Origin: a virus
Strand: one strand, 5' to 3'
DNA length: 25,272 nucleotides
Virus record (IMG/VR): IMGVR_UViG_3300009474_000011
Location: 1 to 25,272 of that record
In this document: piece after piece, positions 16,701 to 19,506 of the stretch
How the letters are laid out: the number at the start of each line of letters is the position of its first letter
Numbering within the stretch: position 1 is the first letter of the stretch
Notes under the pieces: generated by a model
The model's database searches: none
Seen by the model: the letters and a program-made list of their open reading frames with translations, nothing else
What the model was told of the DNA's origin: nothing
Translations under genes and position numbers: made by a program

Positions 16701-16773
16701 CTCCCTGAGTAGGGCACGATCCTACAACTTTCGTGTTAACAGCACGACACTCTACCAATTGAGTTATCAGGGA
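16701..16773 (-). tRNA. tRNA-Asn(GTT)
   Basis: 73 nt cloverleaf: acceptor TCCCTGA/TCAGGGA, D stem ACTC/GAGT, anticodon stem TCGTG/CACGA with loop CTGTTAA, T stem GTAGG/CCTAC, discriminator G, no encoded CCA. The T loop is ATCGTGC: the normal T54 and A58 are exchanged to A54 and T58, while T55 and C56 are kept. It follows the 47-residue ORF and precedes the island terminator. Confidence 0.9.
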
Positions 16774-16780
16774 ATAAAAA

Positions 16781-16924
16781 TCAAAAATGTTCTTTTGATT
16801 TAAGTTTTACCCAATTTAATAAATTGAGATATTGAAATTTGTCGTCAGTTTCCTCCTTTTTTTGAATTAGGGTTTCTAATGCTTCAATGACCATTTCGTG
16901 ATCTTTTTTGGAAAGTAAGCTCAT
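16781..16924 (-). CDS. Small hypothetical protein, 47 aa
   Basis: A short minus-strand frame starting MSLLSKKDHEMVIEALETLI and ending KLKSKEHF. A good Shine-Dalgarno (GAGGGT) stands 6 bases before the ATG at 16924. The sequence is polar and predicted helical (alternating E, K and hydrophobics, LETLIQKKEE), with W38 near the C-terminus and no membrane segment. It lies between tRNA-Leu(TAG) and tRNA-Asn, 7 bases before the latter, and an ACTAAATA late-promoter-like box lies 59 bases upstream. I do not recognise a family. The codon pattern and ribosome site make it more likely real than chance. Confidence 0.7.
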   Translation of the reverse strand: MSLLSKKDHEMVIEALETLIQKKEETDDKFQYLNLLNWVKLKSKEHF

Positions 16925-16932
16925 TTTTTACC

Positions 16933-16975
16933 CTCAACTTTTTTGACGATTTTTTGTCGGGATTTTTTTTCCCGA
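16933..16975 (-). repeat. A-tract repeat, copy 1
   Basis: The plus-strand core at 16933-16961 begins CTCAACTTTTTTGACG and continues with a second T-run and TCGGG; about 26 of 29 positions match 20227-20255. It continues into a 6-bp inverted repeat, TCGGGA/TCCCGA (16957-16962, 16970-16975), around a T7 loop. T-runs are spaced about 11 and 14 bases, which may bend the DNA. It lies just upstream of the ribosome site of the 47-residue ORF. Confidence 0.6.
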
Positions 16976-16982
16976 TTTCATG

Positions 16983-16990
16983 TATTTAGT
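16983..16990 (-). promoter_or_regulatory. Late-promoter-like box ACTAAATA
   Basis: The minus-strand octamer matches TATAAATA at six of eight positions, including the TAAATA core. It follows the hairpin at 16998-17019 and precedes the 47-residue ORF by 59 bases; the same variant occurs before the cpeT operon. Confidence 0.35.
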
Positions 16991-16997
16991 TTTTAAA

Positions 16998-17019
16998 TTT
17001 CAAATCACAGGATTTGAAA
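16998..17019 (-). terminator. Perfect 9-bp hairpin abutting tRNA-Leu(TAG) 3' end
   Basis: The plus strand reads TTTCAAATC, ACAG, GATTTGAAA: a perfect 9-bp stem with a 4-base loop. On the minus strand it begins at the base after the tRNA discriminator and is followed by TTTAAAAAC. The T-run is short and the stem AT-rich, so it may be a weak terminator or a 3'-trailer processing signal. Confidence 0.5.
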
Positions 17020-17101
17020 TGCCCAAGAGAGGACTTGAACCTCCACTCTTTACAGAACAAGTGCCTAAAACTTGCGTGGCTACCAATTACACCACTTGGG
17101 C
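17020..17101 (-). tRNA. tRNA-Leu(TAG)
   Basis: 82 nt, acceptor GCCCAAG/CTTGGGC, anticodon stem CAAGT/ACTTG with loop TTTAGGC (anticodon TAG), T loop TTCAAGT, discriminator A, no CCA. The long variable region (about 14 nt) is as expected for a class II leucine tRNA, in contrast to the short Leu-TAA at 19213. Confidence 0.92.
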
Positions 17102-17147
17102 AGTGACCCCTCTGTTTGAGCATCGTTGAGAGGCTTGAGGGGTGTTG
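17102..17147 (-). other. Hairpin leader before tRNA-Leu(TAG)
   Basis: ACCCCTC (17106-17112) pairs with GAGGGGT (17137-17143) around a 24-base loop, ending 4 bases before the tRNA 5' end. It could be a 5'-leader structure or the remains of an acceptor stem; no T-run follows, so it is not a standard terminator. Confidence 0.4.
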
Positions 17148-17277
17148 ATAATTGGGCGAGGGTGTCCACCTACGTTAAGCGACTTAGCGACTTATGCTGA
17201 AGCAAGTTTCGCTTGTTCTACGATGTGGCCTACGGGACCCTTCGTTTAATACAACGTTCCTTGTTGTACCCAATTAT
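17148..17277 (-). ncRNA. Candidate structured RNA of unknown function
   Basis: A 130-base segment without a supported ORF is closed by a perfect 9-bp inverted repeat, ATAATTGGG (17148-17156) and CCCAATTAT (17269-17277). Directly against the closing helix lies a 6-bp hairpin TACAAC/GTTGTA (17250-17268). A second stem, GAA(G)CAAG/CTTGTTC, is at 17199-17218, and a short duplicated motif AAGCGACTT/AGCGACTT is at 17177-17193. In minus-strand RNA its 5' end would begin one base after the 3' end of the tRNA-like element at 17279, so tRNA 3' processing could release it. The segment is more G+C-rich than neighbouring spacers. It has no T-loop of its own, so it is not a tRNA; function unknown. Confidence 0.4.
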
Positions 17278-17278
17278 T

Positions 17279-17350
17279 ACCTCAGATCGGGAATTGAACC
17301 CAAACTCCAACTGCATTGTCTGCGTGTCCTGACCACTAGACTACCTGAGG
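17279..17350 (-). pseudogene. tRNA-like element with broken anticodon arm
   Basis: 72 nt with a good acceptor (CCTCAGG/TCTGAGG, one G-U), a D stem GTCT/GGAC with D loop containing GG, and a T arm TTGGG-TTCAATT-CCCGA. The middle (ACACGCAGACAATGCAG) cannot form a 5-bp anticodon stem in any register I tried and has no T33. The D arm resembles Glu/Asp-type tRNAs. It sits 4 bases downstream of tRNA-Met. Most likely a decayed tRNA; a deliberate tRNA mimic is an alternative. Confidence 0.6.
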
Positions 17351-17354
17351 TTGG

Positions 17355-17426
17355 GAGCGGGAGCTGGAGTCGAACCAGCAACCTGAGGCTTATGAGACCT
17401 CTGTGCAACCACTACACTTTCCCGCA
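17355..17426 (-). tRNA. tRNA-Met(CAT), initiator-like acceptor end
   Basis: Anticodon stem GAGGT/GCCTC with loop CTCATAA (anticodon CAT), D stem GTGT/GCAC, T arm GCTGG-TTCGACT-CCAGC. The acceptor pairs GCGGGA with TCCCGC, leaving T1 opposite T72. An unpaired 1:72 position is a hallmark of bacterial initiator tRNAs, but the three G-C pairs at 29-31/39-41 are incomplete (T31-G39). CAT could also be read as Ile2 after lysidine modification. Confidence 0.85.
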
Positions 17427-17430
17427 ATGA

Positions 17431-17490
17431 TGGAAGGGGTAACCTGCATATTTAATCTCGATTTAAAATCAAGCGGCTGATTTCCCTTCC
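17431..17490 (-). pseudogene. Truncated tRNA relic with UUA-type anticodon loop
   Basis: A perfect 7-bp acceptor-like stem GGAAGGG/CCCTTCC encloses an anticodon-like hairpin CTTGA-TTTTAAA-TCGAG; the loop places TTA at positions 34-36. Only 10 nt separate acceptor and anticodon stems (19 expected), and the T arm is cut down to GCAGGTTAC with no TTC loop. The 60-nt element is therefore too short for a normal tRNA and looks like a deletion derivative, perhaps of a class II Leu or Ser tRNA. Confidence 0.5.
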
Positions 17491-17514
17491 CAATTCCAAT
17501 TTATTACTGAGCAC

Positions 17515-17591
17515 TTCACTACAAAATTGGCAAAACTGTTGTGAAATACTTTTGGCGTCTTTCTAGGCTATCTGCCTAACGACTACCAAAG
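17515..17591 (-). other. Two consecutive stem-loops between tRNA-Ile(GAT) and the relic
   Basis: First stem: TTCAC.ACA with TGT.GTGAA (17515-17545, one mismatch). Second: an outer CTTTTGG/CCAAAG (17549-17591, one bulge), a short GTC/GAC step, and an inner TAGGC/GCCTA hairpin. The second stem's end is the last paired base of tRNA-Ile. They may be spacers guiding tRNA processing or remains of former tRNAs. Confidence 0.4.
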
Positions 17592-17661
17592 CCCTTAGTG
17601 AGAATCAAACTCGCAATTTCATTCTTATCAAGAATGCGTTCTATCACTAAACTATAAGGGC
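17590..17661 (-). tRNA. tRNA-Ile(GAT)
   Basis: 72 nt, acceptor GCCCTTA/TAAGGGC, D stem GTTT/GAAC, anticodon stem CATTC/GAATG with loop TTGATAA, T stem GCGAG/CTCAC (one C-A mismatch), discriminator T, no CCA. The D loop is AGTGATA and the T loop TTTGATT: the universal G19-C56 tertiary pair is replaced by A19-T56, a matched double change. It starts 2 bases after the stop codon of the HNH gene. Confidence 0.9.
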
Positions 17662-17663
17662 GA

Positions 17664-18254
17664 TTAATTAAATTTAATTGTCGAGTTTACTCTTCTGCAA
17701 TTTCTTCCATTTCCTTTATTTTTTGCTTTATATGTATCAGTTTGAGAATGGCAATTGGGACAAATAATTCTCAAATTATCTGGCGAGTTATTTGTATGTA
17801 TTCCATCTATATGGTCAACCTCTAATGATAAAGATTTACCATTCCATTCGCTTATACCACAAATTTCGCAAATTTCACCTCTATCCTCAAAAAGAATAGA
17901 TTTAATATATCTCCATCCTGGAGAATTACCATTGACATACCAATCTTGTCTTGTTGATTCTCGTTCAAAACATTTTTGACACGTAGAACTACAATATTTC
18001 ATTGTATTTCTTCCTACCAATTCTTTAGTACAGAAAAGACAATTTCTTTTTGGTCTTAATCTTCTTCTAATATTGGAATAGGTAGCAGAACAAGAACTAG
18101 AGCAAAATTTATTAGCATTTCTTTTTTCATATGGAATAGGAGTTTCACAATTTTTACACAATTTTGGTGTCTTATTATAATTTAATTGATTTTTTAGAGA
18201 AAATTGTTTTCCCCATTCTTTCATTGACTCTTTGTGTGTATTAGAGGTTCCCAT
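17664..18254 (-). CDS. HNH endonuclease with two zinc fingers (probable homing endonuclease)
   Basis: A 196-residue protein. Two CxxC...C(x3)C fingers come first (C33/C36/C51/C55 and C72/C75/C88/C92). An HNH nuclease domain follows: CEICG (129-133), VDHIDG (146-151, catalytic D147-H148), SPDNLRIICPNCHS (157-170, with N160, C165, C168, H169). Such free-standing HNH nucleases cut DNA and spread by homing, often near tRNA genes. The ATG at 18254 is preceded by a TATAAATA late promoter 33 bases upstream and a 5-bp hairpin (ACTTG/CAAGT) in the leader. No clear Shine-Dalgarno is visible, so translation may be weak or controlled. The stop codon is only 2 bases from tRNA-Ile(GAT), consistent with insertion into the tRNA array. 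Confidence 0.9.
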   Translation of the reverse strand: MGTSNTHKESMKEWGKQFSLKNQLNYNKTPKLCKNCETPIPYEKRNANKFCSSSCSATYSNIRRRLRPKRNCLFCTKELVGRNTMKYCSSTCQKCFERESTRQDWYVNGNSPGWRYIKSILFEDRGEICEICGISEWNGKSLSLEVDHIDGIHTNNSPDNLRIICPNCHSQTDTYKAKNKGNGRNCRRVNSTIKFN

Positions 18255-18286
18255 ATGACTTGAACTACAAGTAATTTAGTTTTTAT

Positions 18287-18294
18287 TATTTATA
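18287..18294 (-). promoter_or_regulatory. T4-type late promoter (TATAAATA) before the zinc-finger HNH gene
   Basis: Exact TATAAATA on the minus strand, continuing ATAA, 33 bases before the ATG at 18254 and downstream of tRNA-Thr. It would make the endonuclease a late gene inside a tRNA array that has early-type promoters. Confidence 0.75.
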
Positions 18295-18314
18295 AAAGTT
18301 CAACTCTATAAATA

Positions 18315-18385
18315 AGCCCCCAGACAGAATCGAACTGTCGTATCCACTTTACAAGAATGGCGCATCACCACAATGCTTTGGGGGC
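18315..18385 (-). tRNA. tRNA-Thr(TGT)
   Basis: 71 nt, acceptor GCCCCCA/TGGGGGC, D stem GCAT/ATGC, anticodon stem CCATT/AGTGG with loop CTTGTAA, T arm GACAG-TTCGATT-CTGTC, discriminator T, no CCA. Positions 8 and 14 are A and T rather than the near-universal T8 and A14, and position 21 is G. It follows cpeT by 11 bases. Confidence 0.92.
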
Positions 18386-19182: not shown

Positions 19183-19214
19183 CATTTCCAACTATGATTT
19201 ATTTAGTGGAAATG
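19183..19214 (-). promoter_or_regulatory. 8-bp inverted repeat covering the cpeT-operon ribosome site, with ACTAAATA in its loop
   Basis: CATTTCCA (19183-19190) and TGGAAATG (19207-19214) form a perfect stem with a 16-base loop. In minus-strand RNA the 3' arm contains the GGA ribosome site of the 88-residue gene, and the 5' arm includes the last two bases (CA) of tRNA-Leu(TAA). The loop region carries ACTAAATA (19200-19207), six of eight matches to the late promoter. Transcripts starting at that box would lack the 5' arm, leaving the ribosome site open. Confidence 0.5.
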
Positions 19215-19285
19215 CCCGTGGTCAGATTTGAACTGACGCTTGCAAAATTTTAAGTTTTGTGCCTCTTCCGCTGGGCTACACGGGC
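19213..19285 (-). tRNA. tRNA with TAA anticodon (Leu by anticodon), short variable loop
   Basis: 73 nt, acceptor GCCCGTG/CACGGGC, anticodon stem CAAAA/TTTTG with loop CTTAAAA (anticodon TAA), T arm GTCAG-TTCAAAT-CTGAC, discriminator A, no CCA. The variable loop is only five bases (CAAGC), while bacterial leucine tRNAs normally have a long class II arm. A73 is the leucine discriminator, so charging by LeuRS is possible but not certain. Confidence 0.88.
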
Positions 19286-19329: not shown

Positions 19330-19401
19330 TGGGTCATGTTGGATTTGAACCAACGACTAATCGGTTAAAAGCCGAATACTCTACCGCTGAGTTAATGACC
19401 C
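19330..19401 (-). tRNA. tRNA-Lys(TTT)
   Basis: 72 nt, acceptor GGGTCAT/ATGACCC, D stem ACTC/GAGT, anticodon loop CTTTTAA in stem TTCGG/CCGAT (outer T-T mismatch), T arm GTTGG-TTCAAAT-CCAAC, discriminator A, no CCA. Confidence 0.92.
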
Positions 19402-19434: not shown

Positions 19435-19506
19435 TGGTTCTGCAGGGAATCGGACCCCGTTCAGACACTTATAAGGTGTCGGCCTTAACCAATAGGCGAC
19501 AGAACC
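19435..19506 (-). tRNA. tRNA-Ile(TAT)
   Basis: 72 nt, acceptor GGTTCTG/CAGAACC, anticodon stem GACAC/GTGTC with loop CTTATAA (anticodon TAT, codon AUA), T arm CGGGG-TCCGATT-CCCTG (one G-U), discriminator A, no CCA. AUA is a codon favoured by AT-rich phage genes and rare in many hosts. First tRNA of the island after its promoter. Confidence 0.92.

Follow-up and report, generated by a model that had tools for sequence, protein, structure and literature searches.

Exchanged tertiary base pairs in three tRNAs of a putative cyanophage and their counterparts among other phages

How does a tRNA come to exchange both partners of a nearly invariant tertiary base pair? The question is raised by IMG/VR virus record IMGVR_UViG_3300009474_000011, of which positions 1 to 25,272 were analysed (this whole stretch is called the window below). 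The 25 kb record resembles T4-like cyanophages in its genes for tail, baseplate and CpeT proteins, and its host, judged from its relatives, would be a cyanobacterium. In its tRNA cluster, which lies on the minus strand, three genes each carry an exchange of this kind:

16701..16773, minus strand: tRNA-Asn(GTT), exchange A54 (16720)-U58 (16716), with C60 (16714); RF00005 score 59.6 bits.
17590..17661, minus strand: tRNA-Ile(GAT), exchange A19 (17644)-U56 (17607), one T-stem mismatch; RF00005 score 58.5 bits.
18315..18385, minus strand: tRNA-Thr(TGT), exchange A8 (18378)-U14 (18372), with G21 (18366); RF00005 score 55.4 bits.

The tRNAs were called with ARAGORN and with Infernal against Rfam family RF00005 (gathering cut-off 29 bits). 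ARAGORN, which may overlook the most deviant tRNAs, detected 8 in the window and Infernal 9. Both programs place all three exchanges, which had been noticed in a sequence-only reading of the window. Shifted numbering of the D- or T-loop was rejected, because the two programs agreed and the residues could be traced one by one by coordinate. In tRNA-Asn the D-loop is AATTGGTA and the T-loop reads A54-U55-C56-G57-U58-G59-C60. In tRNA-Ile(GAT) the D-loop consists of A14, G15, U16, G18, A19, U20 and A21 and the T-loop is UUUGAUU, with A19 facing U56. The stems had been described as intact save for one T-stem mismatch in tRNA-Ile, and C50/A64 is indeed the sole mispair of the three swapped tRNAs. 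Additional features were G21 in tRNA-Thr, an A8-A14 combination in the neighbouring tRNA-Met and a ninth tRNA-like gene.

The three genes resemble canonical bacterial elongator tRNAs in cloverleaf, anticodon, loop lengths (7 nt in the anticodon and T loops), intact stems and a score far above the cut-off, but each exchanges both partners of one nearly invariant pair. Of the canonical bacterial elbow (G18G19, T54 Psi55 C56 and T54-A58), tRNA-Ile lacks G19-C56 and tRNA-Asn lacks T54-A58. The canonical core pair U8-A14 gives way to A8-U14 in tRNA-Thr and to A8-A14 in tRNA-Met, and is present in the other six ARAGORN genes. We consider it likely (probability about 0.7), judging from sequence comparisons, that these are working tRNAs with matched replacement tertiary contacts. 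A54-U58, with C or a purine at position 60, would replace the reverse-Hoogsteen pair T54-A58; A19-U56 would replace G19-C56, the pair joining the D and T loops; and A8-U14-G21 would replace the triple U8-A14-A21. The L-shape would be retained and the tRNAs charged and used. Such alternative tRNAs would form a standing pool moving between phages, from which the window cyanophage acquired its copies together with the genes.

Coupling was measured in 1,482 unique viral tRNAs, a set from which Asn genes fetched by their T-loop had been left out; counting unique sequences is not the same as counting independent events, and phylogeny does not enter the p-values. Positions 54-58 were T-A in 1,381 of these tRNAs, A-U in 67, A-A in 23, C-A in 5, G-G in 4 and U-U in none. 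The 67 A54-U58 combinations compare with about 4 expected from single-site frequencies (Fisher 1.6e-96). A8-U14 was seen 26 times, often with G21, against 2.4 expected (2e-26). At 19-56 the pairs G-C, A-U, U-A and C-G were all found. Where GG is missing, the alignment of the D-loop has some ambiguity; in 7-nt loops it is nearly fixed, and there the result stands: noncanonical Watson-Crick pairs occurred there 14 times against 0.5 expected, a count reached in 0 of 2,000 shuffles. G55 is accompanied by A18 in most cases.

Position 60 changes along with 54, and was retested leaving out the Asn genes of the sets found by the Asn pattern, since those loci fix C60: a purine occupies it in 66 of 90 A54 tRNAs versus 20 of 1,381 T54-A58 tRNAs, and U60 is found in 1/90 versus 1,172/1,381. 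A simple explanation would be that U60 pairs with A54 and so collapses the T-loop. The window tRNA-Asn, with A54, U58 and C60, falls into this recurrent class of elbow (A54, a changed base 58 and a base other than U at 60). Scans of viral stretches with the Asn pattern returned 90 with A54-U58, one with A54-A58, none with U54-U58 and at least 120 of the canonical form. A further coupling of A54-U58 to the 15-48 pair, suggested by the Asn genes, was absent overall (41/115 versus 522/1,492, p 0.92). Changes so coordinated would mean selected, folded tRNAs; together with the additional coupling of positions 60 and 21 they give strong support to the view that evolution with compensation, and not decay, lies behind them.

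The least probable explanation is that the genes are decaying pseudogenes or non-translational tRNAs of the kind known from the staphylococcal cell-wall tRNA-Gly types: the T-stem mismatch in tRNA-Ile and the degenerate tRNA-like gene at 17279-17350 would fit it, but with the other stems intact, RF00005 scores of 55-60 bits, changes that are matched rather than random, and a bacterium whose sole detected tRNA-Asn is of the A54-U58 type, we regard it as very improbable.

It had been implied that three new double changes arose within this phage, and the relatives argue otherwise. Eighty loci were retrieved via an 88-aa neighbour protein; here as in all sets, loci were fetched through particular markers. 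The same-locus genes (L061-L079) were mostly canonical for Asn, Ile and Thr. The ten nearest relatives of the window tRNA-Asn are all A54-U58 tRNA-Asn genes of distant phages, and with the T-loop masked the nearest neighbour was also swapped for 42 of 51 swapped Asn genes. The A8-U14-G21 type of tRNA-Thr is common to the window, L077, L213, L290, Vibrio phage QD01 and Pseudomonas phage PaP1. Because same-locus relatives are mostly canonical and the closest matches include swapped genes of unrelated phages, the phage most likely acquired the Asn and Thr genes with their exchanges already in place. A close relative of the window tRNA-Ile(GAT) was looked for and none was found.

The Asn pattern with A54-U58 gave 4 matches in 84,980 genomes, versus the 90 viral stretches. 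One explanation, that all four are misbinned phage contigs, is wrong for G002, a 1.1 Mb Bacilli metagenome-assembled genome (MAG), where the match lies on a contig (C18) with the chromosomal genes for prolyl-tRNA synthetase, transketolase and an MgsA-type ATPase. The gene (L395, 7684-7759, minus strand) is the sole detected tRNA-Asn of this MAG, which has 42 tRNA matches (41 distinct tRNAs) and may be incomplete, tRNA-Ile(GAT) having not been detected. Since it is the only one detected and sits on a chromosomal contig, this suggests that an A54-U58 tRNA-Asn serves a cell; possibly the cellular gene was replaced by a phage gene. The other three matches lie on contigs with several closely spaced tRNAs, one of them with replication-relaxation genes. 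A broader swapped D-arm/T-arm pattern detected no further genome among 295 of the phylum of G002, and among 121 genomes of the phylum of a Chloroflexales MAG it matched only contig C435 of that MAG. The canonical form of the pattern matched 31 of 31 genomes, mostly several times each.

In some genomes nearly the whole tRNA set is rewired. The elbow is altered in 34 of 38 tRNAs of a 199 kb virus (G005; its near copy G007 was excluded from the counts), by A54-U58, A54-A58 with purine 60, U19-A56 (Arg), C19-G56 (Arg, Ala, Ser and Met) and, in two tRNAs, C55. A 238 kb virus (G006) has altered elbows in 20 of 21 tRNAs, mostly A18-G55, and C435, probably a mobile element since it carries replication-relaxation genes, in 19 of 25. 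These shares of 76-95% compare with a background of 138/1,399. Changes at 8-14 were not significantly raised in the three sets and 53-61 was intact, so the change there is directed specifically at the elbow rather than being an overall relaxation. Altered elbows also cluster by genome, with 349 same-locus pairs against a shuffle mean of 112 and maximum of 179. As a separate observation, G005 encodes a Ro60-like protein (TROVE and vWA domains; L389:3134-4876, minus strand) within its tRNA array, and relatives of this protein are frequent in actinobacteriophages.

Two explanations of how the swaps arose and spread fare about equally, each held tentatively. The first is neutral compensatory drift: brief infection would tolerate intermediates (A54-A58, U8-U14, G19-U56), re-pairing would follow and transfer would spread the results. 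We rate this somewhat below an even chance. Such intermediates are present, as shown by the 23 A54-A58 tRNAs, and at 8-14 one-sided changes are common (U8-U14 45, A8-A14 14). The expectation that homologues with one partner changed at random would undo the idea of compensation was thus borne out in part at 8-14, and hardly at 54-58 or 19-56. This and several other observations weigh against our preferred account. In most phages only a minority of tRNAs are swapped, and most of the sampled isolates (CcrSC, AN9, Wakanda, STG2, PVA8 and others) have canonical elbows; Caulobacter phage CcrSC, to which part of a swapped tRNA-Thr gave a match, has canonical elbows only. In the window three tRNAs of eight are clearly swapped, beside the one-sided A8-A14, so that no elbow-wide selection is visible there. 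A54-U58 is not isosteric with T54-A58. Nor is A19-U56 specific to phages, because it also occurs in small bacterial genomes, with two chromosome-like cases in 81 (tRNA-Ala of G062 and tRNA-Thr(CGT) of G002). For the three window genes drift plus transfer would possibly suffice. However, drift does not account for G005, G006 and C435, with nearly all elbows changed and 8-14 and 53-61 unchanged, and genome clustering persists without these three extreme loci (113 pairs against a shuffle maximum of 111). The weaker host constraint proposed in the sequence-only reading fails likewise where a phage has nearly all its elbows changed and nothing but its elbows; it may still apply to the window.

The second explanation is escape from defence nucleases or from modification or decay enzymes that read the elbow, which is the adaptive step of our preferred account taken alone, and which we likewise hold to be plausible and short of probable. 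Escape from a factor that reads the canonical elbow would fit changes that are confined to the elbow, extend over the genome and take several forms; in one phage several different solutions occur together, with nothing in common but a lost canonical elbow. Phages are known to evade defence by supplying tRNAs (PMC11555353), and Cas12a3 touches the T-arm (PMC12851939), although that contact is to the phosphate backbone. Anticodon-loop mutations in phage tRNAs are predicted to give escape from host nucleases (van den Berg et al. 2023, PMC10264068); those tRNAs, like ours, differ from their host counterparts at sites that are normally conserved, but the study treats anticodon loops, and its main text does not deal with the D-loop, T-loop or elbow. 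Against escape, the known anticodon nucleases read the anticodon loop, and no elbow-reading nuclease is tied to these hosts, which also counts against the adaptive part of our account. That part, with working alternative tRNAs as its basis, is that some phages are favoured for swapped tRNAs on which an elbow-reading host factor acts less; it is a tentative proposal, in which the factor would be either a nuclease that targets tRNAs or an enzyme of tRNA modification or decay. A stronger form of the proposal holds that canonical elbows are recognised by a host immune or tRNA-decay factor not yet described, and that this is why some phages have near-complete tRNA sets with elbows rewired in several compensated ways (A54-U58, A54-A58 with purine 60, U19-A56, C19-G56, A18-G55), the exchanged window tRNAs belonging to that pool; this we think rather unlikely.

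Avoidance at the level of DNA is a poor third. The T-arm motif GGTTCRANNCC would be altered against integrases and homing endonucleases that insert into tRNA arrays. T-arms of tRNA genes are common integration sites, and HNH endonuclease genes adjoin the window tRNAs, but matching D-loop changes (19 with 56, 18 with 55) and the coupled base 60 are left unexplained, and we consider it improbable.

The remaining genes of the window cluster are as follows:

17020..17101, minus strand: tRNA-Leu(TAG), canonical elbow.
17279..17350, minus strand: tRNA-like gene with a degenerate anticodon arm; 37.1 bits, above the gathering cut-off, no ARAGORN call.
17355..17426, minus strand: tRNA-Met(CAT)-like gene, A8 with A14, a one-sided change kept in L076 and L226.
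19213..19285, minus strand: tRNA-Leu(TAA), canonical elbow.
19330..19401, minus strand: tRNA-Lys(TTT), canonical elbow.
19435..19506, minus strand: tRNA-Ile(TAT), C55 replacing U55, T-loop UCCGAUU; same-locus relatives have U55.

The tRNA-Met(CAT) also has a U1-U72 mismatch, which together with A8-A14 is common to L076 and in part to L226, and it may be an initiator-like phage tRNA. Beside it, at 17435-17497 (minus strand), lies a tRNA-like set of hairpins with a 7-bp acceptor-like stem (GGAAGGG/CCCTTCC) and an anticodon-like arm (CTTGA-TTTTAAA-TCGAG) that would read UAA; D and T arms are absent, and Rfam gives no match. An abiF antitoxin RNA (RF03085, 55.8 bits) adjoins tRNA-Leu at 17106-17142 (minus strand). 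Between it and the tRNA-like gene is a block of about 130 nt (17143-17278), flanked by inverted TAATTGGG/CCCAATTA and containing hairpins, to which Rfam gives no match; positions 17217-17425, covering its end, show 81% identity to S-CREM1. No AbiF gene (Abi_2, PF07751) was found in the window record. The 23-nt core of the abiF RNA was found in 51 viral stretches; in 22 of them, as in the window, a tRNA lies no more than 400 nt away, and one case, in S-CREM1, was already annotated. An Abi_2 match was absent in 39 of 40 records searched, the window's included, many of them fragments. Phages may thus carry an orphan antitoxin RNA directed at host AbiF.

Among known tRNAs, the eukaryotic initiator tRNA-Met has A54-A58 and A60 in its T-loop, and many phage A54 tRNAs resemble it in combining A54 with purine 60; the T-loop AUCGAAA, for example, is found in tRNA-Asp of Acinetobacter phage AB2I2. 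The phage A54-U58 type differs in changing position 58 too and in affecting many elongator isotypes, and the window tRNA-Asn has C60. Mitochondrial and pyrrolysine tRNAs also depart from G18G19/TPsiC, but they shorten loops or lose contacts (PMC7609411), whereas the phage tRNAs keep normal loop lengths and replace the contacts by matched bases. Literature searches found nothing relevant on A54/U58, the elbow or the T-loop in phage tRNAs and no paper joining A54, U58 and tRNA, and reviews of T-loops and noncanonical tRNAs did not mention phage tRNAs; subscription journals were mostly uncovered, so that priority is uncertain.

Few parts of biology are as invariant as the tRNA elbow, which RNase P, modification enzymes and the ribosome all read. 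For annotation the finding means that swapped tRNAs can score poorly or be missed. Phage genomes amount to a large natural experiment on the elbow, with all four Watson-Crick pairs at 19-56, exchanged 54-58 with a coupled base 60, and A18-G55. The elbow features that translation needs become testable in this way, and so does recognition of the elbow by antiviral systems that deplete tRNAs.

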